From positions 234,286 to 298,285 of the forward strand of contig JAFDXR010000001.1 in the NCBI GenBank assembly GCA_018267825.1: a stretch of 64,000 nucleotides of DNA, given 5' to 3'. This DNA is from Bacteroidota bacterium. GTDB lineage: Bacteria; Bacteroidota; Bacteroidia; B-17B0; Aurantibacillaceae. Each line of letters opens with the position of its first letter. Within the stretch, counting starts at the first letter, position 1. The translations under genes and the position numbers were made by a program. A model generated the notes under the pieces. That model was not told the DNA's origin. It did no database searches and saw only the letters and a list, made by a program, of their open reading frames with translations. Of the stretch, positions 30,952-47,940 are shown in pieces.

Positions 30952-32862
30952 ATGAAAAAAACATACGCTGTTTTCTGTTTCTTCCTCGCTTCTTGTTTTT
31001 CCTCACTGCTGGCGCAGGTTGTGAACATACAGGTAAATGCCCTGCAGGGGCGTAAGCCTATTTCACCATACATCTATGGCAAGAATAACAATGTTTCCAA
31101 TGATCCCGGATCTCCGACGTCCGCTGCAGAATGGAAACTGATGCGGGATGCAGGTTTACATTTCACCCGCGAGAACGGCGGCAACAATGCTACAAAATAC
31201 AACTGGCGCTTAAAAATCACGAGCCATCCCGACTGGTACAATAATGTATATGCCACCAACTGGGATTACCAGGCCCAGAAACTCAAAGACAGCCTGCCTT
31301 CAGCACAGGGCATGTGGGCCTTTCAGTTATTGGGTAAGGCGGCGAGCAATACCACGCATAACTTCGACGATTGGTCATACAACATGTCGCAATGGTGGTC
31401 GGGTGTACAGCAAAACCTGGCAGGCGGCGGTACGCCCAACAATGGCGGCGGAAGCGTGGCGCAGGTGCAGGGAAATCCAAATCTTTATCTTGAAAACTGG
31501 ACACCCGATTCTACCACTGGCATTCTGAATCACTGGTTCGGCACCGGCGGTCTTAACCTCGACAGCACCAAAATAAGGTACTGGAGCATGGACAATGAAG
31601 TGGATATCTGGAGCGGCACACACGATGATGTATTGAGTGCACAGCCAAATGCCGAAGCTTTTATGCAGCTGTATTTTGCCGTAGCCAAAAAAGCGAGGGC
31701 CAAATACCCGGGCATTAAACTCGTAGGTCCTGTTCCGGCAAGCGAGTGGCAATGGTATGCCTGGGATAACAACAAGATAACGGTAGGTGGCCAGAGTTAT
31801 GTATGGCTCGAGTTTTTCATCAAGCGCATTTCCGAAGAGGAAGCTGCCACCGGTATCCGTCTGCTCGATGTGATAGACATTCACAACTACCCCAATGAGA
31901 CTAATAACAGCGATATCGTGCAATTGCACAGGATCTATTTTGATACAACCTACAATTATCCGGGGGCCAATGGTGTAAAAACCACAAGCCCTTCGGGCTG
32001 GGATCCATCGATTACCAAGGAATATATCTTCGGACGCTGCAACCAGTGGCTCAATCAATACATGGGCCCCAACCATGGTGTCAGATTAAGTGTTTCTGAA
32101 TTTGGTATTACAAACAACAATGCAAATGTTACGGCCTCATGTTATGGATCAACGCTTGGTACATTTGCCGATAATGGTGTGGAGTTTTTCTCGCCCTGGG
32201 ATTGGTATCCGGGCATGTGGGAAACCATGCACCTTTTCAGCCGCTATGGTAAAAACATCCGTGTGCAATCCGGCTCGAGCGAGGAACTCAATGTATCGGC
32301 CTACTCATCGGTAAATACACCCGGCGACTCCATGACTGTGATTCTTGTAAACCGATCGCTCAGTGCTGCTAAAACAGCCAGCATTTCATTATCCAACTTC
32401 CCTGTGCCGAATGGAACCTATACCTACAAACGATTATACCAGCTGCCTTCACAGGAAACATTCGTATCGCACACAAATAATGCACTCACAACCGGCACCG
32501 TACTCACTGCGGGAAACACCTTTACCGCCTCGCTCCCACCCCTGTCGATCACAGCTGTAATATTGGCTAATCCTATGGCAACAGGTATCAAGGCAAATTC
32601 CGAAACAAGCTGCCAGGCTAAACTGTATCCAAACCCGGTTTCAGGTTCCGGCTTTTACATTGAGCTGGCAGACCAGAAATGGCGTGACCTGCGCGTAACC
32701 TGTTACGATGCCCTGGGCCATATTGTGTATTCGGAACTGCATGCCGGGTTAAATGCAACGGTGATTGAAGTGCCCTGCAAAACCATGCCGCAGGGTGTTT
32801 ATACGGTTCAGCTTTCCTGTGGTGATCAGAAAATCTGGACCTCCAGGTTTGTAAAACTGTAA
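30952..32862 (+). CDS. T9SS-secreted glycoside hydrolase, GH44-like
   Basis: 636 residues with signal MKKTYAVFCFFLASCFSSLLAQ. The catalytic part (about 22-460) starts PISPYIYGKNNNVSN and has FTRENGGNNATKYNW. RYWSMDNEVDIWSGTH (about 205) places the acid/base Glu as in GH44; DVIDIHNYP (about 305) follows, and LSVSEFGI (about 378) carries the probable nucleophile Glu. A beta-sandwich follows, then a type A sorting domain from CQAKLYPNPVSGSGFYIEL. GH44 enzymes cut beta-1,4-glucan or xyloglucan; here the fit is good but some GH44 residues differ (NEVD in place of NEPD). Divergent from the other T9SS cargo gene. Confidence 0.85.
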   Translation: MKKTYAVFCFFLASCFSSLLAQVVNIQVNALQGRKPISPYIYGKNNNVSNDPGSPTSAAEWKLMRDAGLHFTRENGGNNATKYNWRLKITSHPDWYNNVYATNWDYQAQKLKDSLPSAQGMWAFQLLGKAASNTTHNFDDWSYNMSQWWSGVQQNLAGGGTPNNGGGSVAQVQGNPNLYLENWTPDSTTGILNHWFGTGGLNLDSTKIRYWSMDNEVDIWSGTHDDVLSAQPNAEAFMQLYFAVAKKARAKYPGIKLVGPVPASEWQWYAWDNNKITVGGQSYVWLEFFIKRISEEEAATGIRLLDVIDIHNYPNETNNSDIVQLHRIYFDTTYNYPGANGVKTTSPSGWDPSITKEYIFGRCNQWLNQYMGPNHGVRLSVSEFGITNNNANVTASCYGSTLGTFADNGVEFFSPWDWYPGMWETMHLFSRYGKNIRVQSGSSEELNVSAYSSVNTPGDSMTVILVNRSLSAAKTASISLSNFPVPNGTYTYKRLYQLPSQETFVSHTNNALTTGTVLTAGNTFTASLPPLSITAVILANPMATGIKANSETSCQAKLYPNPVSGSGFYIELADQKWRDLRVTCYDALGHIVYSELHAGLNATVIEVPCKTMPQGVYTVQLSCGDQKIWTSRFVKL

Positions 32863-33282: not shown

Positions 33283-36200
33283 ATGAATAAACTCTACCTG
33301 CTTTTATTTAACAGGAACTTTTCTATTTTCAAAAAACACGTCCTAATCCGAGTTGTGCCATTTGGTTCCTGTACTGCTTCCGGCAATCGTTTTCAAACGA
33401 CACGCTGGAAATATTTTGGCATCATGATGCCTTTACTTATTTTGCTTACCGGACTCCAGAAATTATCTGCCCAGATTGCTTCTTTTCCATACACAACAGC
33501 CGGTACCTATACCTGGAGTTGTCCTTCGGGTATCACAACGCTTACTGTTGAATGTTGGGGCGGCGGCGGCGGCGGCGGCGGTGTGGCTACGACCAGTGGT
33601 GCTGCCAGCGGCGGCGGCGCTGGTGGAGCATATGCACTGAATATCATTTCCGTAACACCAGGCACCTCCTACATTATTGTTGTAGGTGCAGGCGGAACGG
33701 GTGGCGCAAACACTGGCGGTAATGGGGGGGCCGGTGGAAATTCATCATTTAATAATACAACAGTACTTGCCGTTGGCGGTACGGGTGGAACAGGGGCCAC
33801 AACGCTCGTAGGTGCCGCAGGCGCTACAGGATCAAGCAGCGGGAGTATAGGAAGTTCTATTTTTGCAGGCGGTAACGGCGCAGCCGGAACGGTTTCGAGT
33901 ATCGGTGGCGGCGGAGGTGGTGGTGCCGGAAATACTGCTAATGGTGGCAATGCCAGCGGTTCAACGGCCGGTACAGGTGGGACAACCGGTGGTGGTGCCG
34001 GTGCTACCGGGGTTAGCAATGCAGTACCTGCGGCTGCCACTGCTCCAGGAGGGGGAGGCGCCGGTACCCGTCGTACAACTACCAACCGCGCCGGTGGAGC
34101 CGGTGGAGCCGGCAAAGTTGTGCTCACCTATGTAAACCCCGCTCCTACTATCGAGAATTTCCTGAATCAAACGTTCTGTACAACTACATATCCGTCCGGA
34201 TACAATACAGTTACTTTCTCTTTAATAGAAACAACCGCCACAAATTTTGATGCCAACCAAACCAATCAAACGCTGGTGCTCACACTGCCGGCTGGTTTTG
34301 CATTTAATACAGCTGCGGGATCTACTGTAACACGTAATACAGCTGCCGCGGCACAGGACATTACCATCGTCGGTTTCAGCATGACTACTTCAGCCATTAC
34401 AGTAACTCTTACAACTGCAGCAACCCAGGCCAATGTAGACGCAATTAACTTTAATAATTTTCAAATACGTGCTACGGCTGCGGGCAGTGGCGATCTGGTG
34501 AGAACCGGAGGCACATTCAGCATCAATACCAGCTCGGCTGTTCCTACATCCACGCAGTCATTCGGGCATCTTGCCACAAGCAGTCCCTCTACATACAGCA
34601 GTAGTGCTGTTAGTCAATACACTACATCCAGCATCATTAAAGGTTGTACGAGTACAAGCAATCCTATCCTCGAAATTAAAGTCAACATTAACGGTGGCTA
34701 TTGCACTCCAAACGACGCGATTTCACAATTTGTATTTAACACAACCGGCGATGCAGGTTCTACAAACCCTGCCACTGATATCAGTAAAGCCGAAGTGTAT
34801 TATGCAGATACAACACGCGGGTTTACAAATGCCAATTATTTCGGATCGGTTAACAGTCCAAGCGGAACCTTTACAGTAACGGGCTCACAGCCACTTAATA
34901 AAGGTCCCGGGCCGTATTATTTTTATCTGACCTATACAATTCCTGGCACGGCCACTTCGGGTAATATGGTGGATGCGCAAATGAATTCTTTTACATTCAA
35001 CGGATCTGTTGTCACAACAAGCATCAGCACACCGAATCCAACTGGCGGCAGACAGATCATATCCGGAACCTGCCCTCCTTCGGCCGATTTAACACCACCG
35101 ACTACAAACACACAAACCATTACAGCAGGCTCACTGATTATTCCCATGGATAATACGCACCAGGCCCTGGTAGCACCATTTAACCTGAAAGCTTATGGAC
35201 TGGTTCATGCCTTATTGCAAAACGACATTCCTGTAAAATGGATCATTAAATCCGGGAAAGCCAAGGATGCCGCCGACTTTGTTGCAACAGCAGGGCAAAT
35301 ATATCCTACAACTTCGGCTGCAGCATCGCAGACTTTCATTGCCAGTGCTTTTGCCGTTGACAGTTTCTGGACCGACCATGCATATTATCCCGGCGGCTTA
35401 ACAGCCACCCAGGTCATGACTTCATTTGCTATAACAAACAGCGTTTCAGTTTATCAATTAACCGCCGATGTTGCTGTAGATGTACGTTACACGTTAAATC
35501 ACCGCCCGAAAATTGCTGTATTTAGTAATGGTGGTAACGAGGCCATTCAAACTACAATGCTCGACGCAGCCGGTGTTACAAATTATTTTGTTCAGGATGC
35601 GGGCGACTTTGCAGGGCTGGCGGCCTGTTATACATTCTGTTCAGAGTCGCACTGGGACTACTCCAAAAACCCCGATACACGGCCTGTACAGCGGGTTATG
35701 GATTTTGTGAGCCAGGGCGGTAACTTCCTTGCTCAATGTGCAGGGATCGATCTTTATGAAAATCACCAGCCAACGAGCGGGCACTTTCAAAGCACGAACG
35801 GTGTAAGCTTTGCCAATACCACATTGACCAATACCGACTATAATCCTGACATGGCATATTTCCAGTACCAGGGAACAGTAACTTCTCAAAATGGTACCAT
35901 TGCCAGCTTCTGGCCTGCGGCAAGTTCTGTATTTAAGCCGCAAACTTATAAAGGTGTTAGCACGCCTGCCGTGACCAATACGGTTGTTGCAACAGCTGTA
36001 CACCTGGCAGATCCTGATTCTGTCGGATCAAACGTATTTTACCTGGGCGGTCACCAGTATGCTGCCGGAACCATCGGTAACGACAACGGGATCAGGATGT
36101 ATCTGAATGCAACATTAATTCCGGCACACCGCCCGACAGCATTCCCGATTGCATTACCTGCCAACCCGACCATTTGTTCGGGTTCCAGTGTTACGATCGG

Positions 36201-39200
36201 CCCTGTTTGCGCCTCAGGAGCCACTTATGTGTGGTCGCCTGCGACTGGATTAACTAACACGACCGTTTGCACACCTATAGCCTCACCATCTGTTACCACC
36301 ACATATACGGTAACCGGCTTTAATGGCGGTTGTATCATGGGGCCATCGACAATGACGGTTGTTGTGAATCCAACACCGGTGATGACCAATACAAGTTCTG
36401 CGACTATTTGCAGTGGTGCTGTTGCCAGCATTCCATTAACCAGCAACCTGGCATCTACATACAGCTGGATTGCCGCCGATAATCCAAACACTACCGGCGA
36501 GAGTTTAACGGCACAATCGACTGGCACACTTAATAACACGATTGTGAATACCAGTACAAGTGTGCAAACCGTTATTTACACGGTCACACCAACTTCAACA
36601 CTCGGTAGCTGCGCAGGCACTCCTCAAACGGTTACCATTACTGTGAATCCGGCTCCAAGCATGACCAGTACCAGTACATCAACCATTTGTGCAGGTTCCA
36701 GCGTAAACATTCCTTTAAGTTCCAATATTGCAGGGGCCACATTCACATGGATTGCTACAGACAATACAAATACAAGCGGTGAAAGTTTAACCGCACAAAA
36801 TACCGCTACACTTAGCAATACCATTACAAACGGCACAACCATCGCACAGAATGTTATCTATACGGTAACGCCTGGTGCCGGAGGTTGTACCGGCAGCGGA
36901 CAAACGGTAACCGTGACTGTAAATCCGACACCGGCCATGACCAATACCAATGCAGCTACCATCTGCAGTGCCGGTTCTGTCAATATTCCGCTGACCAGCA
37001 ATATCAGTTCTTCCTATTCCTGGATTGCAGCCGATAACACCAACACAACCGGTGAAAGTTTAACAGCACAAAGCACAGGCACTATTAACAATACCATCAA
37101 TAACAGTTCTGCCAGTGCACAAAATATTATCTATACCGTGACGCCAACGGCAGGAGGATGCCCGGGCACAGCACAAACGGTTACGGTTACAGTGAATCCT
37201 ACACCTGCCATGACCAGCACGAATGCAGCTGTGATCTGTACAGGGGCAACCGTTAATATTCCGCTCACGAACAATGTCGGAAGCACGACATTCAACTGGA
37301 TCGCAACAGACAATACCAATACGACCGGGGAAAGTCTGACAACACAAAGTACTTCTTCTATAAATAATACGATTACCAATGCCACAACCAATGCCCAAAG
37401 CGTTGTATATACTGTAACGCCATTTGCAGGTGCCTGTCCGGGTACTCCGCAAACCGTGACAGTGACTGTAAATCCAACACCAGCCATGACCAGTGCCGGA
37501 TCGGCTACCATTTGTAGTGCCGGTGCTGTGAATATTGCATTAAGCAGCAATGTGGCATCCAGTTATTCGTGGATTGCCGCCGACAATGTGAATACAACCG
37601 GAGAGAGCCTAAGCGCACAAAGCACCGGCACGATCAATAATACCATCACCAACAGCAGTGCTTCGGTTCAGAATGTTATTTATACGGTAACACCGACATC
37701 AAGCGGCGGAAGTTGTGCAGGAACTGCACAAACCGTTACGGTAAGTGTAAACCCGCAACCGGCTATGACCAGTGCGTCTTCTGCAACTATCTGCAGCGGC
37801 AATTCAACAGCTATTGTATTCAGCAGCAACGTCGCATCCGGTTACAGCTGGCTCGCCACAGATAATGTGAATACGACCGGTGAGAGTATAACTGCACAAA
37901 CAACTGCCACACTCAACAACACGATTACCAATAGCAGCACAAGCACACAGAATGTGGTTTATACGGTAACGCCTACATCTACCGCAGGAAGTTGTATCGG
38001 TACACCTCAAACCATTACGGTATCTGTAAATCCAGCACCGGCTATGACCAGCGCAGGTAATGCCACGATTTGCAGCGGCAATACAACCAGCCTGGCATTC
38101 ACGAGCAATGTGCCATCAACGTACACCTGGATTGCAACAGACAATACGAATACAACCGGTGAAAGCTTAACAGCGCAAAGCACGGCCACCTTAAGCAATA
38201 CTATTACCAATAACAGTACCAGTTCACAGATTGTGACCTACACAGTAACGCCGACCTCAAGTACCGGAAGTTGCCCGGGAACGGCACAAACCATTTCAGT
38301 AACTGTGAACCCGGTACCATCAGCTACGGCAACACCTAATTCACAAAGCATCTGTTCGGGCAATGCCAGCTCTATTGCATTAAGCAGCAATGTAGCAGGA
38401 ACAACATTCTCATGGACCGTAACGCAAACCGGCGTGAGCGGCGCTTCTGCCAGCTCCGGAACCAACATTGCACAAACGCTTACAACTACAGGCAGTGCCA
38501 CAGGAACTGTTGTTTATACAATCACACCAACGGCCGGCGGTTGCACGGGTTCACCGATTACAGCAACTGTTACGGTAAGCCCAATTCCTTCTGCCACTGC
38601 AACACCTGCATCGCAGAGCCTTTGCTCAGGCAACACAAGTACTATAGCATTGACAAGCAACGTAGCCGGCACAACGTTCTCATGGACGGTTGCCCAAACC
38701 GGCGTGAGTGGTGCCAGCAACGGATCAGGCACTTCCATTTCACAGGCTCTTACAGCAACCGGCGCCAGCACTGGTACGGCCACCTACTCTATTACACCAA
38801 CCGCAGGCGCCTGTCCGGGTACACCCATTGTGGTGACGATTACTGTAAACCCGACACCAAGCGCCACTATCACACCAGGCTCACAAACTATTTGTTCGGG
38901 TAGCACCAGTTCACTTAGCTTAACAAGCAATGTAACCGGTACTACATTCAACTGGACTGTTAACCAAACCGGTGTGAGTGGAGCATCAGCAAGTTCGGGC
39001 ACCATTATCTCACAAGCCTTAACCACCACAGGAGTTACTGCAGGTACAGCCATTTATACAATAACTCCAAGGGTAGGTTTATGTGCGGGCAGCAATATTA
39101 CTGCCACAGTGAATGTGAATCCGGCACCGACTGCATCTGCCACTCCGGCTACACAAAGTATCTGTTCAGGAAATACAACATCCATTGCGCTCAGCAGTAA

Positions 39201-42200
39201 TGTGGGTGGAGCCGCTTTTTCATGGACCGTTGCCCAGAGTGGTGTGAGTGGAGGCTCAAACAATTCGGGCACCAGCATTGCACAAACATTATCTGCTACC
39301 GGCTCTACTCCGGGAACAGCTACCTATACCATTGTACCATCCGCCGGAGGATGTAACGGTACAGCCATCGTAGCAACAGTGACTGTCAACCCGATTCCAA
39401 CGACGACAGCCACTCCATCTTCTCAAAGTTTCTGTTCTGGTGGTGCTACATCCATCGCATTAACCAGTAATGTGGCAGGTGCTACATTCTCATGGACAAC
39501 CTCACAAAGCGGTGTAAGTGGCGCCAGCAACAGTTCCGGCACCAGTATTACACAAACACTGACCACCACAGGTGCTACATCCGGTACAGCAAATTATACG
39601 ATTACACCAGGTGCATCAGGCTGTAATGGTTCTCCGCTGGTGGTTACCGTAACCGTGAACCCGATTCCGACGGCCACTGCTACACCTGCATCGCAGGCGT
39701 TCTGCTCAGGTGGAACAACAGCCATTGCCTTATCCAGTAATGTGGCTGGTGCTACATTCTCATGGACCACCACACAAACAGGCATTACAGGAGCATCTAA
39801 CAGTTCTGGTACAAGCATCGCTCAAACATTAAGTACAACAGGTGCAAGCACCGGTACTGCTACCTACTCCATTACACCAACGGCAGGAAGCTGTTCGGGT
39901 ACTGCTATTACAGCCAGTGTAACCGTGTATCCGGCACCGGTAATGACCAGTGCCGGTTCCGCAACAATCTGCGGTGGTGGCACGGTCAATATTCCTTTCA
40001 CCTCCAATGTACCTTCTACATATACATGGATTGCCACAAACAATCCGAATACAAGCGGTGAAAGCATCACCACACAAAGCTCCAACACGCTTAACAATAC
40101 CATTACAAGCAGTACAGGAACTACAGAGATTGTGGTTTATACGGTAACACCAACATCCACACTCGGTAGCTGTCCGGGCACGTCACAAACCATCAATGTA
40201 ACGATCAGCCCGACTCCTGTATTAACGATTACACCGACATCACAAACACTTTGCTCAGGAAACCAGGCTTCTATTGGCTTGAATAGTAATGTAAGTGGCA
40301 CAACCTACACATGGACAGTGGCACAAAGCGGCGTCAGTGGTGCCAGTGCAGGCACCGGAACAACCATTGCTCAAACACTTAATTCAACAGGAACGGCTAC
40401 CGGTTCAGTAGTTTATACTATCACTCCTACTATCGGTACCTGTTCCGGCAGCGCATCTACTGCTACTGTATTTGTAAACCCTGTTCCGACGGCTACAGCA
40501 ACTCCGTCTTCGCAAAGCTTCTGTTCGGGCGGCACCACGGCTATTGCATTAACAAGCAATGTTGGCAGCACGACATTCTCATGGACAACCTCTCAGGCAG
40601 GTGTTAATGGTGCCTCTAACGGTGCAGGTACAAGCATTGCCCAAATGCTGACAACAGCTGGTACAAGTTCCGGAACAGCCACGTACAGCATTATTCCAAC
40701 AGCTAACAGCTGTTCGGGTACACCAGTTGCGGTGACAATTACTGTAAATCCTGTACCATCGGTTACTGCCACACCTTCATCACAGGCCTTTTGTTCCGGT
40801 GGTGCAACGTCTATTGCTTTAACCAGCAATGTAACAGGTGCTACATTCTCATGGACTTCGGCACAATCGGGCGTGAGTGGCGCATCCAATAGTTCAGGAA
40901 GCACCATCTCTCAAACACTAACAGCTACTACGAGCAGTAATGGTACTGCATCCTATACAATTACACCAACAGCAGGCACCTGCTCCGGAAGTCCGGTTGT
41001 GGTGACTGTAACAGTATATCCTATTCCTGCTGCCCCGACAGCATCTGTAAACAGTCCTGTATGTATCACCAATACAATTAACTTATCGGCTGGCACTGTG
41101 GGAGGCGCTACCTATTCGTGGAGTGGTCCGAACAGTTTCAGTTCATCTTTACAAAACCCGTCAATCACCAATGCAGCACTTACCGATGCAGGCACGTATT
41201 CCGTACATGTTACTGTAAATGGTTGTACAGGTCCAAACCAAACGGTGAATGTGGTGGTGAATACGCCTCCTCCTTCTACCTTATCTCCGGCATCCAACAG
41301 TCCTGTATGTACCGGGCAGACGCTCAGTTTAAGTATTGCTGCTATTCCTGCAGCAAGCTACAGCTGGTCTGGCCCGAATAGTTTCGGTTCAGCACTGCAG
41401 AACCCAAGCATTACGAATGTTACACTTCCTGCTGCTGGTGTTTATACGCTCAATGCAACTGTACCAGGTTGCAGCGCCAGTGGAAGCGGCACTGTAGCTG
41501 TTGTTATAAATGCAACACCTTCAGCCCCGGCAGCATCCAACAACGGACCTGTTTGTGCGGGTGCCACACTCAGCCTCACGGCCAGCAATGCCGGCACAAG
41601 CTTTAACTGGAGTGGCCCGAATACATTTACCTCTTCAGTACAGAATCCGACTCTGTCAAATATCAGCCTGGCGGATGCAGGTGTTTATTCGGTAACAGCA
41701 ACTTCCAATGGTTGTACAGGTCCTGCCGGTACAACCACGGTGATTGTAAATCCTATTCCGGCGACACCGACCGTCACCAGCAATAGCCCGCTTTGTGTTA
41801 ACCAGACCCTGAACCTGAGCACATCTGCAGTAGCCGGTGGAACTTATTCATGGAATGGTCCGAATACATTTACATCTTCGATACAGAACCCATCTGTGCC
41901 TAACGTATCTGTTGCTAATGCCGGTACTTATTCATTGAATGTCACTGTGAGCAACTGTACAAGTGCTACAGGAACTGTGAATGTTGTCATTAACTCTTCA
42001 CCATCCACACCAACGGCAAGTGCCAACAGCCCTGTGTGTACAGGCGATACATTATTCCTCAGCACCAATACCGTTGGCGGCGCAACCTATAGCTGGACCG
42101 GCCCGGGCGGATTTACTTCCACCAGCCAGACACCAAGCATTACACCGGTTGCACTGAGCCATGCAGGTACCTATACTGTCATTGCCAATAACGGATGTGC

Positions 42201-45200
42201 CAGTGCCCCTGCAACTGTTTCAGTAGCAGTGAATCAAACACCATCATCACCTGTTGCCGGCAACAACTCTCCTTTCTGCCAGGGTTCAACACTGAATCTG
42301 ACTGCATCCAATGTAGCCGGAGCCAGTTATAACTGGTCGGGACCAAACAGTTTCACAGCCACAATACAGAATCCAAACATTCCGGCAGCTTCAGCAACAA
42401 ACGCTGGAACATACTCCGTAACGGTAACTCAAAACGGTTGTACAAGTCCAGCCGCTGTGACAACGGCCTCTGTGAACAACCCTGCTATTGCAGCAGCCGG
42501 TAGTGCGCAGACCGTATGTGCGAATAATGCTGTGGCGGTTTTAAGTGGTACAATCAGTGGCGGATCGACAACCGGTAACTGGACCAGTACAGGCACGGGC
42601 TCATTCAGCCCTTCGAGTTCAGTGCTCACCGCAAGCTATACACCAAGCAATACCGATACTGCTGCCGGCAGCGTTGTGTTAACCTTAACATCCACCAATA
42701 ACGGTGCCTGTGCTGCGGCCACATCATCTATCACATTAACCATCAGTGATGCACCACTTGTAAGCGCAGGCGCCAGTCAGTCGGTATGTGCCAATAATCC
42801 TAATGTTTCCTTAAATGGAAGTGTCAGCGGCGGAAGTACAACCGGCTTATGGACAACTTCGGGTACCGGCACTTTCACACCGGGTGCAAACGCGCTGAAC
42901 GCGACGTATGTACCAAGTGCTACTGACATTGCGGCCGGTAACGTAACATTTACACTGACATCTACCGGAAATGGTCAATGCCTTGCTGTAAGCTCGCAGA
43001 TGACTGTAAACATAACCGGTGCACCAACTGTAAATGCAGGAACTGACCAGATAAAATGTAAAGCATCTGTCAATGCTGCCCTGAGTGGAACAGTAACCGT
43101 TACCAATACAGGAATTTGGTCAACACTCGGAAGCGGAACATTTACACCGAATGCCAATACGCTGAACAGTACATACGTACCAAGCACTGCAGATACTTCG
43201 GCAGGCAGTGTACTGCTTGTACTCACGTCTTCAAATAATGGCGGTTGTATTGCCGTAACAGATACCGTAAAAATAAGTTATGCTGATATTCCGGCAGTTT
43301 ATGCCGGTTCAAGCCAGACTGTGTGTGCCAACAATGCAAACGTAGCATTGAGCGGTACTGTAACTGCAGGAGGTTCAGCGGGTATATGGAGCAGTTCCGG
43401 TACCGGAACATTTACTCCGAATGCAAGCTCACTCAATGCTACTTATATACCAAGTGCGGCAGATACGGCTTCAGGTAATGTCACCATCACCCTCAGTTCA
43501 ACCAATGGTTGTGTGGTTGTAACAGACAACCTCGGCATCACTATTACAGATGCTCCTGTAGCCAATGCCGGTGCCAACACATCGGTATGTGCCAACAATG
43601 CTGTAGCAAGCATCACCGGAACTGTCAGCGGTGCTACAACCACAGGCATCTGGTCGTCGAGCGGTACAGGTACATTCAGTCCATCCAACACCAGTATGAA
43701 TATCAATTATACAGCCAGCCCAGCAGATATTACAGCAGGCTCTGTGTACCTGATCCTTACATCTACGAACGCCGGTACCTGTAATGCTGCGATTGACACA
43801 CTTGTATTAAGCATTACTCCGCCACCGGTAGCCAATGCCGGTAATGATACCAGTTTCTGTGCCAACAACACACTCGTGCTTCATGGTACAATTACCGGCG
43901 GAAGCGGTTCCGGTATATGGACAAGCAATGGCAGTGGCTCATTCAGTCCGAATGCCAATACCCTGAATGCGACCTATATTCCAAGCAATGCGGATACAGC
44001 TGCTCACCAGGTTGTGCTTACACTGACATCATCCAATAACGGTGGTTGCCTGGCAGCAACAGATCAGATGACAGTGAACATTACGCCTGCTCCGACTATT
44101 TATGCCGGTGCCGATCAGGCCATTTGTGCCAATACAACTTCGGTAAGTCTTAACGGAACCGAAAGTATTGCCAGTGGTGCACAATGGACCAGCCCTGGCG
44201 ATGGGACATTTACAAATGCAGGTTCACTGAATGCCAGCTATACACCAGGCACAAACGATATCACTGCCGGTACGGCCACGCTGATCATAACATCGACCGG
44301 AAACGGAGGTTGTCGTGCCGCTACCGATACCATGCATATACAGATCCAGGCGCTTCCGGTTGTGAATGCCGGCAGTAACCAGTTTATCTGCTCAAGCATT
44401 ACTTCTGTAAATATAAATGGTACTGTAAGCGGAGGAAGTTCAACAGGCAGCTGGACAACACTGGGCAGTGGCTCCTTTGGCAATCCTTCAAATCTAAGCA
44501 GCACGTATACACTCAGTACAGCCGACACAACAGCAGGCAGTGTATCGCTCGTTCTGACATCTACCAATAATGGTAACTGTAATGCCATAACCGATACCGT
44601 ATTAATTACAGTAACCCCTGCAGGTTTTGCCAATGCCGGAAACGATACAACGATTTGTGCCAGTGTAAGCGCAGTTCACTTATCGGGTATTATCCTGGGC
44701 GGTACCGGTACCGGTCAATGGAGCAGTACAGGTACAGGAACCTTCACGCCATCCACAACATCGCTTACTGTAGATTATGCACCAAGTGCAGCTGATATAA
44801 GCGCAGGTTCAGTGGGCATTAAATTATCGCCGATAAACAGTTGTATGCCAACAGCCGATTCTATTGTTGTTACAATTGCTCCTGCGCCTGTTGTTGACGC
44901 TGGTACCAATATCGGCATCTGTGCCTCCACGCAGACAGTAGCCCTTAATGGAACTGTAAGCGGTGGCAGTACAACCGGGCAATGGACGACAACCGGCAGC
45001 GGAACCTTCCTGCCTTCGGCAACGACACTGAATGCCATCTACCAACTGAGCACTGCAGATTCAACAGCCGGCGCTGTGAAACTGATACTGACATCTACCA
45101 ATAATGGTTCCTGCGGTGGTGCCGCAGATTCGATTACCGTAACTATCACTGCACCTGCTACAGCAAATGCAGGTAATAATGTAACCGTGTGTGCTAATCA

Positions 45201-46923
45201 CAGCGCTGTGAATCTTGCTGGTGTTATTACCGGCGGCACAGGGCAAGGCCAGTGGACCAGTCATGGTAACGGAACATTTGCTCCGACTGATACTACATTG
45301 GGCGCAACCTACACACCGGGTTCTGCGGATATTTCGGGCGGACAGGTTGTATTGGTATTATCGCCGATAAATGCCTGCGCACCATCATCAGATTCGATTG
45401 TGGTAACAATTACGCCATCACCTACAGTGAGTGCAGGCAGTGATGTTACGATGTGCGGAGGTTTATCTCCGATCAATTTGTCAGGAAGCATCAATACTGT
45501 ACCAACCGGTGCGGTGTGGACAACAAATGGTAACGGCACATTCAGTCCTACAGACTCGACCATGAATGCCATTTATACTCCGGTAGCCGGCGACAATGAC
45601 ACGCTTGTGTTTGTGCTCACAACCACAGGAAACGGTTTATGCTATGCAGTAAACGACACTGTCGTTATTTTCCGCAATGCACAGCCAATTGCCAATTTCG
45701 GATACTCGCCGCTCTGTACAGGTAAAGCCGTTGCTTTTACCGACAGCTCAGCTGCAAGCACCGGAACTATTACAAGCTGGAACTGGGATTTCGGCGGTGG
45801 TAATACGGCTACCGTTCAAAACCCAAGCTATACATACAGTACAACAGGCACCTATACTGTCAGCCTGCATGTATCCACAGGCAACGGTTGCAGTGATTCT
45901 ATCACAAAAATTATCCATGTGCATCCAAGCCCGGTGAGCACTTTCAGCTACACCAGCAGTTGTTTGCATGATACGCTTCATTTCAATAACGGATCCAGTA
46001 TCTCAGGAGGCAGCATTACAGGCTGGAACTGGAGCTTTGGTGACGGAGGTTCATCTACGCAACAAAATCCGGGACATGTATATGACAGTTTAAAAGTTTA
46101 CACAGTAAGCTTAACCGTAACATCGGATTCAGGCTGTACGGCTTTATCAACACAAACTGTTGACATACATCCTACACCAAATGCCGGATTCAGTCTTCAA
46201 TCGAATTGCGGTTCACTGTCTGTAAGCTTCCACGACACCTCTTCTGTTGGCCCTGTGGTGTGGAACTGGAGCTTTGGTGATGGTAATACATCGACACAAC
46301 AGAATCCGACGAATGTATACGGTATTGCAGGTACATACACCGTTTCATTGATGGTAACATCAGCATACGGTTGTAAGGATACTGTATCGCATATTGTAAA
46401 CCCAGGACAATCTGTAACTGCCGATTATATACCGCATGGCGGAACTTATAATGTGAATCAAAGCATCTCATTCACCAACCAGTCGACGGGAGCTTCTTCT
46501 TATAACTGGACTTTTGGAGATAACACCACACTAGGTTCTACCGATCCATCGCACGCCTACTCTCAACCCGGCACTTATACAGTTGTACTGGTTGCTGACA
46601 ATGGCCTTGGATGCAGCGATACAGCCAGCTATGTATTCACCATCAACACAACAGGATATACCGTTCCAACAGGCTTCACACCTAATGGCGATGGTCTGAA
46701 CGATTACTTCTACGTGATGGGTGGTCCGTTTGATGAATACGATCTGCATGTATTCAATGAATGGGGTAACGAAGTTTTCTCATCCGGTCTGCAAAGCAAC
46801 AAATGGGACGGAACATTCAAGCTGACCGATCAGCCGTCAGGTACGTATATCTACGTATTCAACGGAAAAACGGCTGATGGCCAGATCATTAAATTAAAAG
46901 GAGAAGTAAACATAATCCGATAA
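33283..46923 (+). CDS. Giant T9SS-secreted repeat adhesin (SprB-like), gliding-motility type C-terminal domain
   Basis: 4,546 residues, single frame. Order: long leader (1-64; core MMPLLILLTGLQKLSAQ at 48-64); Gly-rich domain (65-285); two beta-rich domains (287-440 and about 447-590, the latter BNR-associated-like); an alpha/beta domain with QCAGI around Cys819 (600-955); one Ig-like domain; 17 repeats of 82-95 residues of family A (1033-2583); 6 of family B (2583-3066); 12 of family C (3067-4132); four PKD domains with WNWSFGDG (4133-4457); and VPTGFTPNGDGLNDYF (4459 on), the CHU_C/type B sorting domain. Each repeat has two cysteines placed alike. The next gene is PorP/SprF-like, the usual partner. 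Probably a cell-surface filament for adhesion or gliding. The start could also be M48 at 33424. Confidence 0.93.
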   Translation: MNKLYLLLFNRNFSIFKKHVLIRVVPFGSCTASGNRFQTTRWKYFGIMMPLLILLTGLQKLSAQIASFPYTTAGTYTWSCPSGITTLTVECWGGGGGGGGVATTSGAASGGGAGGAYALNIISVTPGTSYIIVVGAGGTGGANTGGNGGAGGNSSFNNTTVLAVGGTGGTGATTLVGAAGATGSSSGSIGSSIFAGGNGAAGTVSSIGGGGGGGAGNTANGGNASGSTAGTGGTTGGGAGATGVSNAVPAAATAPGGGGAGTRRTTTNRAGGAGGAGKVVLTYVNPAPTIENFLNQTFCTTTYPSGYNTVTFSLIETTATNFDANQTNQTLVLTLPAGFAFNTAAGSTVTRNTAAAAQDITIVGFSMTTSAITVTLTTAATQANVDAINFNNFQIRATAAGSGDLVRTGGTFSINTSSAVPTSTQSFGHLATSSPSTYSSSAVSQYTTSSIIKGCTSTSNPILEIKVNINGGYCTPNDAISQFVFNTTGDAGSTNPATDISKAEVYYADTTRGFTNANYFGSVNSPSGTFTVTGSQPLNKGPGPYYFYLTYTIPGTATSGNMVDAQMNSFTFNGSVVTTSISTPNPTGGRQIISGTCPPSADLTPPTTNTQTITAGSLIIPMDNTHQALVAPFNLKAYGLVHALLQNDIPVKWIIKSGKAKDAADFVATAGQIYPTTSAAASQTFIASAFAVDSFWTDHAYYPGGLTATQVMTSFAITNSVSVYQLTADVAVDVRYTLNHRPKIAVFSNGGNEAIQTTMLDAAGVTNYFVQDAGDFAGLAACYTFCSESHWDYSKNPDTRPVQRVMDFVSQGGNFLAQCAGIDLYENHQPTSGHFQSTNGVSFANTTLTNTDYNPDMAYFQYQGTVTSQNGTIASFWPAASSVFKPQTYKGVSTPAVTNTVVATAVHLADPDSVGSNVFYLGGHQYAAGTIGNDNGIRMYLNATLIPAHRPTAFPIALPANPTICSGSSVTIGPVCASGATYVWSPATGLTNTTVCTPIASPSVTTTYTVTGFNGGCIMGPSTMTVVVNPTPVMTNTSSATICSGAVASIPLTSNLASTYSWIAADNPNTTGESLTAQSTGTLNNTIVNTSTSVQTVIYTVTPTSTLGSCAGTPQTVTITVNPAPSMTSTSTSTICAGSSVNIPLSSNIAGATFTWIATDNTNTSGESLTAQNTATLSNTITNGTTIAQNVIYTVTPGAGGCTGSGQTVTVTVNPTPAMTNTNAATICSAGSVNIPLTSNISSSYSWIAADNTNTTGESLTAQSTGTINNTINNSSASAQNIIYTVTPTAGGCPGTAQTVTVTVNPTPAMTSTNAAVICTGATVNIPLTNNVGSTTFNWIATDNTNTTGESLTTQSTSSINNTITNATTNAQSVVYTVTPFAGACPGTPQTVTVTVNPTPAMTSAGSATICSAGAVNIALSSNVASSYSWIAADNVNTTGESLSAQSTGTINNTITNSSASVQNVIYTVTPTSSGGSCAGTAQTVTVSVNPQPAMTSASSATICSGNSTAIVFSSNVASGYSWLATDNVNTTGESITAQTTATLNNTITNSSTSTQNVVYTVTPTSTAGSCIGTPQTITVSVNPAPAMTSAGNATICSGNTTSLAFTSNVPSTYTWIATDNTNTTGESLTAQSTATLSNTITNNSTSSQIVTYTVTPTSSTGSCPGTAQTISVTVNPVPSATATPNSQSICSGNASSIALSSNVAGTTFSWTVTQTGVSGASASSGTNIAQTLTTTGSATGTVVYTITPTAGGCTGSPITATVTVSPIPSATATPASQSLCSGNTSTIALTSNVAGTTFSWTVAQTGVSGASNGSGTSISQALTATGASTGTATYSITPTAGACPGTPIVVTITVNPTPSATITPGSQTICSGSTSSLSLTSNVTGTTFNWTVNQTGVSGASASSGTIISQALTTTGVTAGTAIYTITPRVGLCAGSNITATVNVNPAPTASATPATQSICSGNTTSIALSSNVGGAAFSWTVAQSGVSGGSNNSGTSIAQTLSATGSTPGTATYTIVPSAGGCNGTAIVATVTVNPIPTTTATPSSQSFCSGGATSIALTSNVAGATFSWTTSQSGVSGASNSSGTSITQTLTTTGATSGTANYTITPGASGCNGSPLVVTVTVNPIPTATATPASQAFCSGGTTAIALSSNVAGATFSWTTTQTGITGASNSSGTSIAQTLSTTGASTGTATYSITPTAGSCSGTAITASVTVYPAPVMTSAGSATICGGGTVNIPFTSNVPSTYTWIATNNPNTSGESITTQSSNTLNNTITSSTGTTEIVVYTVTPTSTLGSCPGTSQTINVTISPTPVLTITPTSQTLCSGNQASIGLNSNVSGTTYTWTVAQSGVSGASAGTGTTIAQTLNSTGTATGSVVYTITPTIGTCSGSASTATVFVNPVPTATATPSSQSFCSGGTTAIALTSNVGSTTFSWTTSQAGVNGASNGAGTSIAQMLTTAGTSSGTATYSIIPTANSCSGTPVAVTITVNPVPSVTATPSSQAFCSGGATSIALTSNVTGATFSWTSAQSGVSGASNSSGSTISQTLTATTSSNGTASYTITPTAGTCSGSPVVVTVTVYPIPAAPTASVNSPVCITNTINLSAGTVGGATYSWSGPNSFSSSLQNPSITNAALTDAGTYSVHVTVNGCTGPNQTVNVVVNTPPPSTLSPASNSPVCTGQTLSLSIAAIPAASYSWSGPNSFGSALQNPSITNVTLPAAGVYTLNATVPGCSASGSGTVAVVINATPSAPAASNNGPVCAGATLSLTASNAGTSFNWSGPNTFTSSVQNPTLSNISLADAGVYSVTATSNGCTGPAGTTTVIVNPIPATPTVTSNSPLCVNQTLNLSTSAVAGGTYSWNGPNTFTSSIQNPSVPNVSVANAGTYSLNVTVSNCTSATGTVNVVINSSPSTPTASANSPVCTGDTLFLSTNTVGGATYSWTGPGGFTSTSQTPSITPVALSHAGTYTVIANNGCASAPATVSVAVNQTPSSPVAGNNSPFCQGSTLNLTASNVAGASYNWSGPNSFTATIQNPNIPAASATNAGTYSVTVTQNGCTSPAAVTTASVNNPAIAAAGSAQTVCANNAVAVLSGTISGGSTTGNWTSTGTGSFSPSSSVLTASYTPSNTDTAAGSVVLTLTSTNNGACAAATSSITLTISDAPLVSAGASQSVCANNPNVSLNGSVSGGSTTGLWTTSGTGTFTPGANALNATYVPSATDIAAGNVTFTLTSTGNGQCLAVSSQMTVNITGAPTVNAGTDQIKCKASVNAALSGTVTVTNTGIWSTLGSGTFTPNANTLNSTYVPSTADTSAGSVLLVLTSSNNGGCIAVTDTVKISYADIPAVYAGSSQTVCANNANVALSGTVTAGGSAGIWSSSGTGTFTPNASSLNATYIPSAADTASGNVTITLSSTNGCVVVTDNLGITITDAPVANAGANTSVCANNAVASITGTVSGATTTGIWSSSGTGTFSPSNTSMNINYTASPADITAGSVYLILTSTNAGTCNAAIDTLVLSITPPPVANAGNDTSFCANNTLVLHGTITGGSGSGIWTSNGSGSFSPNANTLNATYIPSNADTAAHQVVLTLTSSNNGGCLAATDQMTVNITPAPTIYAGADQAICANTTSVSLNGTESIASGAQWTSPGDGTFTNAGSLNASYTPGTNDITAGTATLIITSTGNGGCRAATDTMHIQIQALPVVNAGSNQFICSSITSVNINGTVSGGSSTGSWTTLGSGSFGNPSNLSSTYTLSTADTTAGSVSLVLTSTNNGNCNAITDTVLITVTPAGFANAGNDTTICASVSAVHLSGIILGGTGTGQWSSTGTGTFTPSTTSLTVDYAPSAADISAGSVGIKLSPINSCMPTADSIVVTIAPAPVVDAGTNIGICASTQTVALNGTVSGGSTTGQWTTTGSGTFLPSATTLNAIYQLSTADSTAGAVKLILTSTNNGSCGGAADSITVTITAPATANAGNNVTVCANHSAVNLAGVITGGTGQGQWTSHGNGTFAPTDTTLGATYTPGSADISGGQVVLVLSPINACAPSSDSIVVTITPSPTVSAGSDVTMCGGLSPINLSGSINTVPTGAVWTTNGNGTFSPTDSTMNAIYTPVAGDNDTLVFVLTTTGNGLCYAVNDTVVIFRNAQPIANFGYSPLCTGKAVAFTDSSAASTGTITSWNWDFGGGNTATVQNPSYTYSTTGTYTVSLHVSTGNGCSDSITKIIHVHPSPVSTFSYTSSCLHDTLHFNNGSSISGGSITGWNWSFGDGGSSTQQNPGHVYDSLKVYTVSLTVTSDSGCTALSTQTVDIHPTPNAGFSLQSNCGSLSVSFHDTSSVGPVVWNWSFGDGNTSTQQNPTNVYGIAGTYTVSLMVTSAYGCKDTVSHIVNPGQSVTADYIPHGGTYNVNQSISFTNQSTGASSYNWTFGDNTTLGSTDPSHAYSQPGTYTVVLVADNGLGCSDTASYVFTINTTGYTVPTGFTPNGDGLNDYFYVMGGPFDEYDLHVFNEWGNEVFSSGLQSNKWDGTFKLTDQPSGTYIYVFNGKTADGQIIKLKGEVNIIR
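33557..33582 (+). repeat. (GGC)n run in the Gly-rich domain
   Basis: About seven consecutive GGC codons give eight or more glycines. As a three-base unit it can change length without shifting frame. Confidence 0.7.
36380..41020 (+). repeat. Family A Ig-like repeat array, 17 units in two subtypes
   Basis: Units of about 250-285 bases. Subtype A1 (x-M-T-S...ATICSG, then DNxNTTGESLTAQ) makes units 1-7 (36380-38310) and 14 (39931-40214). Subtype A2 (ATPxSQSxCSG, then SWTxxQxGVSGAS) makes 8-13 (38311-39930) and 15-17 (40215-41020). DNA stretches such as GGTGCTACATTCTCATGGAC recur almost unchanged, for example near 39479, 39745 and 40836. Confidence 0.9.
41030..42480 (+). repeat. Family B repeat array, 6 units
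   Basis: Six units of about 76-82 residues with the pattern NSPVCxGxTLxLS followed by YSWSGPNSFxSxxQNPSI and DAGTYSVxVT. Ig-like, two Cys per unit. Confidence 0.88.
42481..45680 (+). repeat. Family C repeat array, 12 units
   Basis: Twelve units of about 85-92 residues: NAGxxxxVCANN, then LxGTVSGGxTTGxW, then SxGTGTFxPxxxxLNAxYxPS, then LTSTNNGxC. Two Cys per unit. Confidence 0.88.
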
Positions 46924-46926
46924 ACT

Positions 46927-47940
46927 ATGAAAGCTAAATTATATATCACTTCGCTGATCTGTGGCCTTGCCTGTTTACAGGCACATGCACAGGATTTTCA
47001 CCTGGCACAGTACGATGCTTTCCCTTTGTACCTGAACCCTTCTCTTACCGGGAATTACCTGGGTGAACAGGGCGACTACAGGGTTTCGTCGGTTTACCGT
47101 ACCCAATGGAAAGCCCTTACGCCAAAACCCTATACAACCTATGGTATTGCCTATGATATGCCTTATAAGCGTTTTGGAGTGGGTGGTTATTTACTGGACA
47201 ATAAATCAGGGGTTGGAAATTTCAATACACTCGATTTTCAATTATCGGGGTCGTATTTCATTACTGACCCTAAAACCTCTCCACACCTGTTGAGCACAGG
47301 CATTCAGCTTGGGCTTTTTTATAAAAGCTATAATCCGCAAAAATACCTGTTCGAAAGCCAGTACGATTATTCTTCGGGCACACTCAATCAGGATATTGCC
47401 AGTGGCGAAAACCTGAACCGGATGAATCGCACCAATTTTGATGCAAACATGGGTATTTTCTATAAATACCGTGACAAGCAGAAAAAATACTGGCCGTTCA
47501 TAGGAGTAGCCTTGTACCACGTCAACAGACCAACGGAGAATTTCTACGCTTATAAAAGCCGTCTTCCTATTCGTTTCAACATACAGGGTGGCTGCGATTT
47601 CCAGGTGAATGAAAAACTCAAACTCACGCCGCAGATTTTATACATGACGCAGGCCAAAGCCTGGGAGTGTAACATCGGGGCATTGGCCTATTACAGGCTT
47701 AATGACAGCAAAGAATCAGATGTGCATTACGATCTTATCGGCGGATTGAATTACCGTGTGAAAGATGCCTGCATTGTTCAGCTTGGTGTAAAGAAAGACA
47801 ATCTGGCGGTGAGAATGAGTTATGATTTTAACACATCATACCTGAATAGTTATACCGGCGGGCGCGGTGGTTTTGAGATCACGCTTCAGGTTATTGGCAT
47901 CAAGGGTCGCCCGGTGTTCAAAACTATGGCTAAATTCTGA
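46927..47940 (+). CDS. PorP/SprF-family T9SS outer membrane protein
   Basis: 337 residues with signal peptide (MKAKLYITSLICGLACLQAHAQ). The opening of the mature chain, DFHLAQYDAFPLYLNPSLTGN, is the PorP/SprF signature, and the rest is alternating amphipathic strands of a beta-barrel ending in a short FKTMAKF strand. SprF-type proteins are needed to export or attach their adjacent SprB-like adhesin. Only 3 bases separate it from the giant gene, so this is an operon and a functional pair. Confidence 0.93.
   Translation: MKAKLYITSLICGLACLQAHAQDFHLAQYDAFPLYLNPSLTGNYLGEQGDYRVSSVYRTQWKALTPKPYTTYGIAYDMPYKRFGVGGYLLDNKSGVGNFNTLDFQLSGSYFITDPKTSPHLLSTGIQLGLFYKSYNPQKYLFESQYDYSSGTLNQDIASGENLNRMNRTNFDANMGIFYKYRDKQKKYWPFIGVALYHVNRPTENFYAYKSRLPIRFNIQGGCDFQVNEKLKLTPQILYMTQAKAWECNIGALAYYRLNDSKESDVHYDLIGGLNYRVKDACIVQLGVKKDNLAVRMSYDFNTSYLNSYTGGRGGFEITLQVIGIKGRPVFKTMAKF

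Follow-up and report, generated by a model that had tools for sequence, protein, structure and literature searches.

A giant T9SS type B protein with a conserved candidate Cys/His-enzyme head and an adjacent PorP/SprF-like carrier

The window, a 64,000-nucleotide stretch of a Bacteroidota genome, encodes a giant protein which we interpret, with a probability of roughly 60%, as a T9SS type B surface stalk that is held by a PorP anchor, carries a candidate Cys/His-enzyme head and is more probably fixed in place than used for gliding. According to this interpretation the giant would be exported by Sec, its CHU_C signal would direct it across the outer membrane via the SprA translocon, and the PorP/SprF-like carrier encoded next to it would pick it up and retain it in that membrane. 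Approximately 40 PKD/Ig modules would then form the stalk and, because the anchor is C-terminal, the glycine-rich, BNR_N-like and head domains at the N-terminus would be held far from the cell. The head would be a Cys/His enzyme, or else would derive from such an enzyme and bind a ligand. Type B display via a PorP carrier is already known; what is new is the unnamed and strongly conserved head, which in most cases is placed at the tip of a giant stalk or close to it. Additionally, the 2025 finding on the tail cysteines of SprF (PMC12635249) becomes testable here, because there is a whole group of giant-protein carriers without a tail cysteine.

Architecture and secretion signal of the giant

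The giant is encoded by a single frame (33283-46923; 4,546 residues) uninterrupted by any stop, as the sequence-only reading had described; this frame and all of the features located within it, as well as the carrier gene, lie on the + strand. The frame is not a product of chance: the nearest relatives have similar giant frames, one of 4,980 residues and one of at least 4,585 residues (where the contig end is reached), and the former aligns with the window giant block by block with the order kept. Residues 1-63 (33283-33471) form a putative signal peptide region, read from the sequence as a long n-region and then a hydrophobic stretch. Consistent with the signal peptide proposed earlier, the nearest relatives have leaders of ~60 residues too. 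Such leaders, with a long stretch ahead of the hydrophobic part, are seen in the window giant and in L059, L060 and L053, where they often start with M-x-K-(L/I/F)-Y; other head-bearing giants show the same type of start with a short leader.

Two matches lie N-terminal to the head: a Gly_rich_2 domain (residues 71-283; 33493-34131; PF21722, 69.4 bits versus a cut-off of 24.3) and a BNR_assoc_N-like segment (34651-35004; PF14873, 24.1 bits, slightly below the cut-off of 25). Between them is an unnamed segment (residues 287-440; 34141-34602) which is conserved like the head. Compared with the nearest relative, L060, this segment is 79% and the head 78% identical, the highest values for any part of the protein, against 52-65% for the repeat blocks and 65% for the C-terminal domain (CTD). 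The head itself (residues ~602-956; 35086-36150) is supported by alignments of 4, 19 and 15 sequences and by a class-wide search. It is followed by the stalk (residues 957-4455; 36151-46647), in which Pfam finds 17 PKD_5, 11 Ig_7 and 4 PKD_4 matches. Core tryptophans are spaced ~80-92 residues apart between positions 984 and 4409, and this spacing gives ~40 modules, in line with the earlier estimate of about 40 beta-sandwich domains. Within the stalk, the PKD_5 block (36388-41082; residues 1036-2600) has a single Lys/Arg in its 1,565 residues and a Ser/Thr content of 39%, a composition that is extreme for a stalk.

The CTD (residues 4460-4530; 46660-46872) matches the CHU_C model PF13585 with 58.6 bits (cut-off 27) and TIGR04131 with 38.5 bits (cut-off 35), the matches covering residues 4460-4531; the sequence-only reading had staked its case on these models, and both score above cut-off. 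The genome (4.8 Mb, rated 100% complete) encodes SprA (2411 bits) and GldK (565 bits), both above cut-off, so a T9SS is present for such a signal to address. The best GldJ homologue scores 453.4 bits, slightly below the curated cut-off of 458.2. Judged by its signal, the window giant is a T9SS type B substrate, which is a known kind of protein, and from this we infer its secretion and display at the surface.

Upstream of the giant are two type A T9SS proteins; one of them, encoded just before it (30952-32862), has a GH44 glycoside hydrolase domain. Downstream of the pair come a gene on the reverse strand that matched no family and one resembling a chromate transporter gene. Among those flanking genes that were tested at the relatives' loci, where the flanks are short, PorP alone recurred.

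Conservation and distribution of the head

The enzyme-like region suspected near the N-terminus proved to be real: residues ~602-956 are 77-78% identical in another genus, and between genera dN is ~0.14 with dS saturated, pointing to strong purifying selection. Neither Pfam nor NCBIfam gives a match to the head above cut-off, and no paper on it was found. When 86 other genomes of the taxonomic family were searched, just 2 contained a close relative, with 78% identity. Across the class, 395 Bacteroidia genomes were searched with a profile, and 41 gave a head match; nearly the whole head is found in 21 of the 395 (the window genome counted), the remaining matches being partial or weak. Viral contigs were also scanned and yielded no usable relatives. 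The class-wide search led us to reject the idea that the window locus is unique. The domain order, which had been described as unfamiliar, is likewise not peculiar to this protein: the same head occurs at or near the N-terminus of many Bacteroidia giants. Three architectures can be distinguished, namely giants of ~1,800-5,600 residues with CHU_C, proteins of 560-690 residues (a T9SS type A signal was demonstrated in three), and giants with the head immediately after the signal peptide. One locus (L063:2332-6045) holds a neighbouring gene pair, each member with a divergent head domain.

On profile comparison, the head is homologous to a stand-alone Bacteroidota family of ~430 residues (hhalign 98.3%, E 1.5e-14, 172 columns), which has no Pfam or NCBIfam name. 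Members of this family are secreted-looking and share the invariant Cys/His residues of the head; they differ from it in being only ~20% identical, in having no stalk, and in that no T9SS signal model matched. A joint alignment of the two shows as invariant His790 (codon 35650-35652), Cys819 (35737-35739, within GGNFLAQC), Gly923-His924 (His924 at 36052-36054, within LGGHQY), one Arg and one Asn. This genome has one copy of the stand-alone family, and in a wider sample of the phylum it was mostly this family alone that was found. The family (L106, L064-L075, L086-L093, L095) is widespread in Bacteroidota and has a conserved KKKKQKT-like C-terminus and a GGHDPEDY motif.

The PorP/SprF-like partner

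The gene for the 337-residue carrier (46927-47940) starts at 46927, 3 bases past the giant's stop codon, and matches PF11751 PorP_SprF with 116 bits (cut-off 22.3) and TIGR03519 with 161 bits (cut-off 90.6), so that position and both family models agree with the PorP/SprF-like gene noted earlier. In F. johnsoniae, export of type B substrates requires the cognate PorP/SprF carrier (PMC12618676). In this genome, the surroundings of the PorP matches revealed eight additional CTD/PorP pairs. Across 21 pairs the CTD and PorP distances correlate with r = 0.80; among the 13 head-bearing pairs the value is 0.85, compared with 0.49 for CTD and head and 0.42 for PorP and head, and among this genome's 9 pairs it is 0.54 (Mantel permutation p = 0.0001 to 0.002 for these correlations, p-values that ignore shared ancestry). 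This co-divergence is consistent with cognate pairing. At the fetched loci of 15 head-bearing giants with a complete C-terminus, PorP is adjacent in 10 and separated by one gene in 4, and for the last it is absent from the fetched stretch. Adjacency, co-divergence and recurrence in relatives thus support the dedicated partner that had been proposed, and the giant is probably held by its own outer-membrane PorP.

The head also appears to have been combined with more than one kind of anchor. In L049, L052, L053 and L081 one gene separates the giant from PorP, with TPR/PD40 matches in the three of these four intervening genes that were checked by Pfam, and the CTDs and PorPs of these loci group apart from the window's. 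In the trees of head, CTD and PorP (13-21 sequences), the L053 head joins the window's head group (91/94 support) and its CTD and PorP do not, and so there are probably at least two anchor types.

Alternative readings of head, partner and anchor

The invariant Cys/His pattern makes it plausible that the head is an enzyme. Its GGNFLAQC motif is similar to the turn that carries the nucleophile in class I amidotransferases, and the GG-x-x-x-x-x-C-like pattern aligns on the cysteine of class I glutamine amidotransferase-like proteins such as PurQ and BPL_N. Matches to BPL_N were obtained with 5 out of 19 heads (best E 0.033) and with 1 out of 18 stand-alone members, and in the window head the match covers the motif; a PurQ-like sequence matches the head and stand-alone profiles at the cysteine motif with E 0.015 and 0.16. 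The head shows no significant match to these proteins past ~25-30 residues. In profile-profile comparison (hhalign) PurQ aligns with the profiles over 23-24 columns around the cysteine, with a probability of about 1%, and because this alignment is so short and improbable the head was not placed in the amidotransferase superfamily. A class I amidotransferase-like fold is therefore suggested at the cysteine motif only. Comparison with BPL_N, ThuA and PurQ established no kinship past that motif, and PDB sequence searches with the head returned chance matches only (e.g. designed 'Cake' proteins over 29 residues). An AlphaFold2 model from four head sequences had a mean pLDDT of 35, too poor to show whether the head adopts the flavodoxin-like fold of that superfamily. 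Surface giants of the SprB-like type are usually adhesins, and the protein could accordingly be an ordinary adhesin whose head is a non-catalytic binding domain retaining an old enzyme fold. That the head matches no named or solved enzyme fits such an origin, as does the loss of the GG ahead of the cysteine in the most divergent members (L061, L063). Nevertheless, Cys819, His790 and His924 are retained even in the stand-alone family, at its low overall identity, and the head is conserved more than the repeats. We regard the binding domain as a real possibility, though at well below even odds, and keep the candidate enzyme in the preferred reading. A further proposal is offered tentatively: the head would be a cell-surface Cys/His enzyme of a new class, held out by Bacteroidia at the tip of very long T9SS stalks and joined to various CTD/PorP anchors, which would make the stalk a modular device for enzyme display and not an adhesin.

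Turning to the carrier, it is quite improbable that the adjacent PorP is not dedicated and that the giant is served by another PorP, with the adjacency incidental. The genome does hold about a dozen PorP genes (11 matches and one more seen beside them), and crosstalk between similar type B CTDs occurs in F. johnsoniae (PMC12618676), but the nearest paralogue of the window PorP is just 37% identical, CTD and PorP co-diverge, and the 3-base spacing belongs to an arrangement repeated in relatives. An SprB-like gliding adhesin, in which the PorP would be coupled to the moving gliding track and the cell driven forward by the giant, is less remote, though still unlikely. SprB/SprF of F. johnsoniae is built in the same way, as a giant type B T9SS substrate with the carrier gene directly downstream (PMC12618676, PMC12635249), and GldK and the near-cut-off GldJ homologue are encoded in the genome. 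Furthermore, in F. johnsoniae an adjacent PorE-like gene goes with static anchoring, and moving substrates there have no such neighbour (PMC12618676); next to the window giant/PorP pair there is no PorE-like gene, which counts against static anchoring. This also separates the window pair from Fjoh_3952/Fjoh_3951, which otherwise resembles it in having a type B CTD and an adjacent cognate shuttle and for which static anchoring has been proposed (PMC12618676). Against gliding stands the carrier's tail. The tail Cys-x-Cys of F. johnsoniae SprF forms a disulfide with GldK, and these cysteines are needed for sustained movement and dispensable for export (PMC12635249), but the last 45 residues of the window PorP contain no cysteine and hence no SprF-type Cys-x-Cys. 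The tails of its five closest relatives (L060, L047, L048, L050 and L054, picked among carriers of head-bearing giants) are also without cysteine, and together with the window PorP they form one supported group (99/99). Tail cysteines do occur in 6 of the 12 compared PorP genes of this genome, including the neighbour of the GldJ homologue, and this genome's GldK has cysteines besides the lipidation site. A strict Cys-x-Cys was absent from all 26 PorP tails that were compared, and the rule from F. johnsoniae may therefore not hold unchanged in this lineage. The window giant further differs from SprB in its N-terminal glycine-rich, BNR_N-like and enzyme-like domains and in a stalk of PKD_5, Ig_7 and PKD_4 matches, with no SprB-repeat model among the Pfam matches.

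On balance, the tail-cysteine evidence argues moderately against a gliding role for the giant, which we do not favour, and we infer that a static anchor is more likely. It is the gliding half of the earlier 'gliding or adhesion' that gives way, on a PorP tail without cysteine, unlike that of F. johnsoniae SprF. The organism itself may glide, because it encodes SprA, GldK and the near-cut-off GldJ homologue. The PorP/SprF gene immediately upstream of that homologue (L101:11704-14391) has two tail cysteines.
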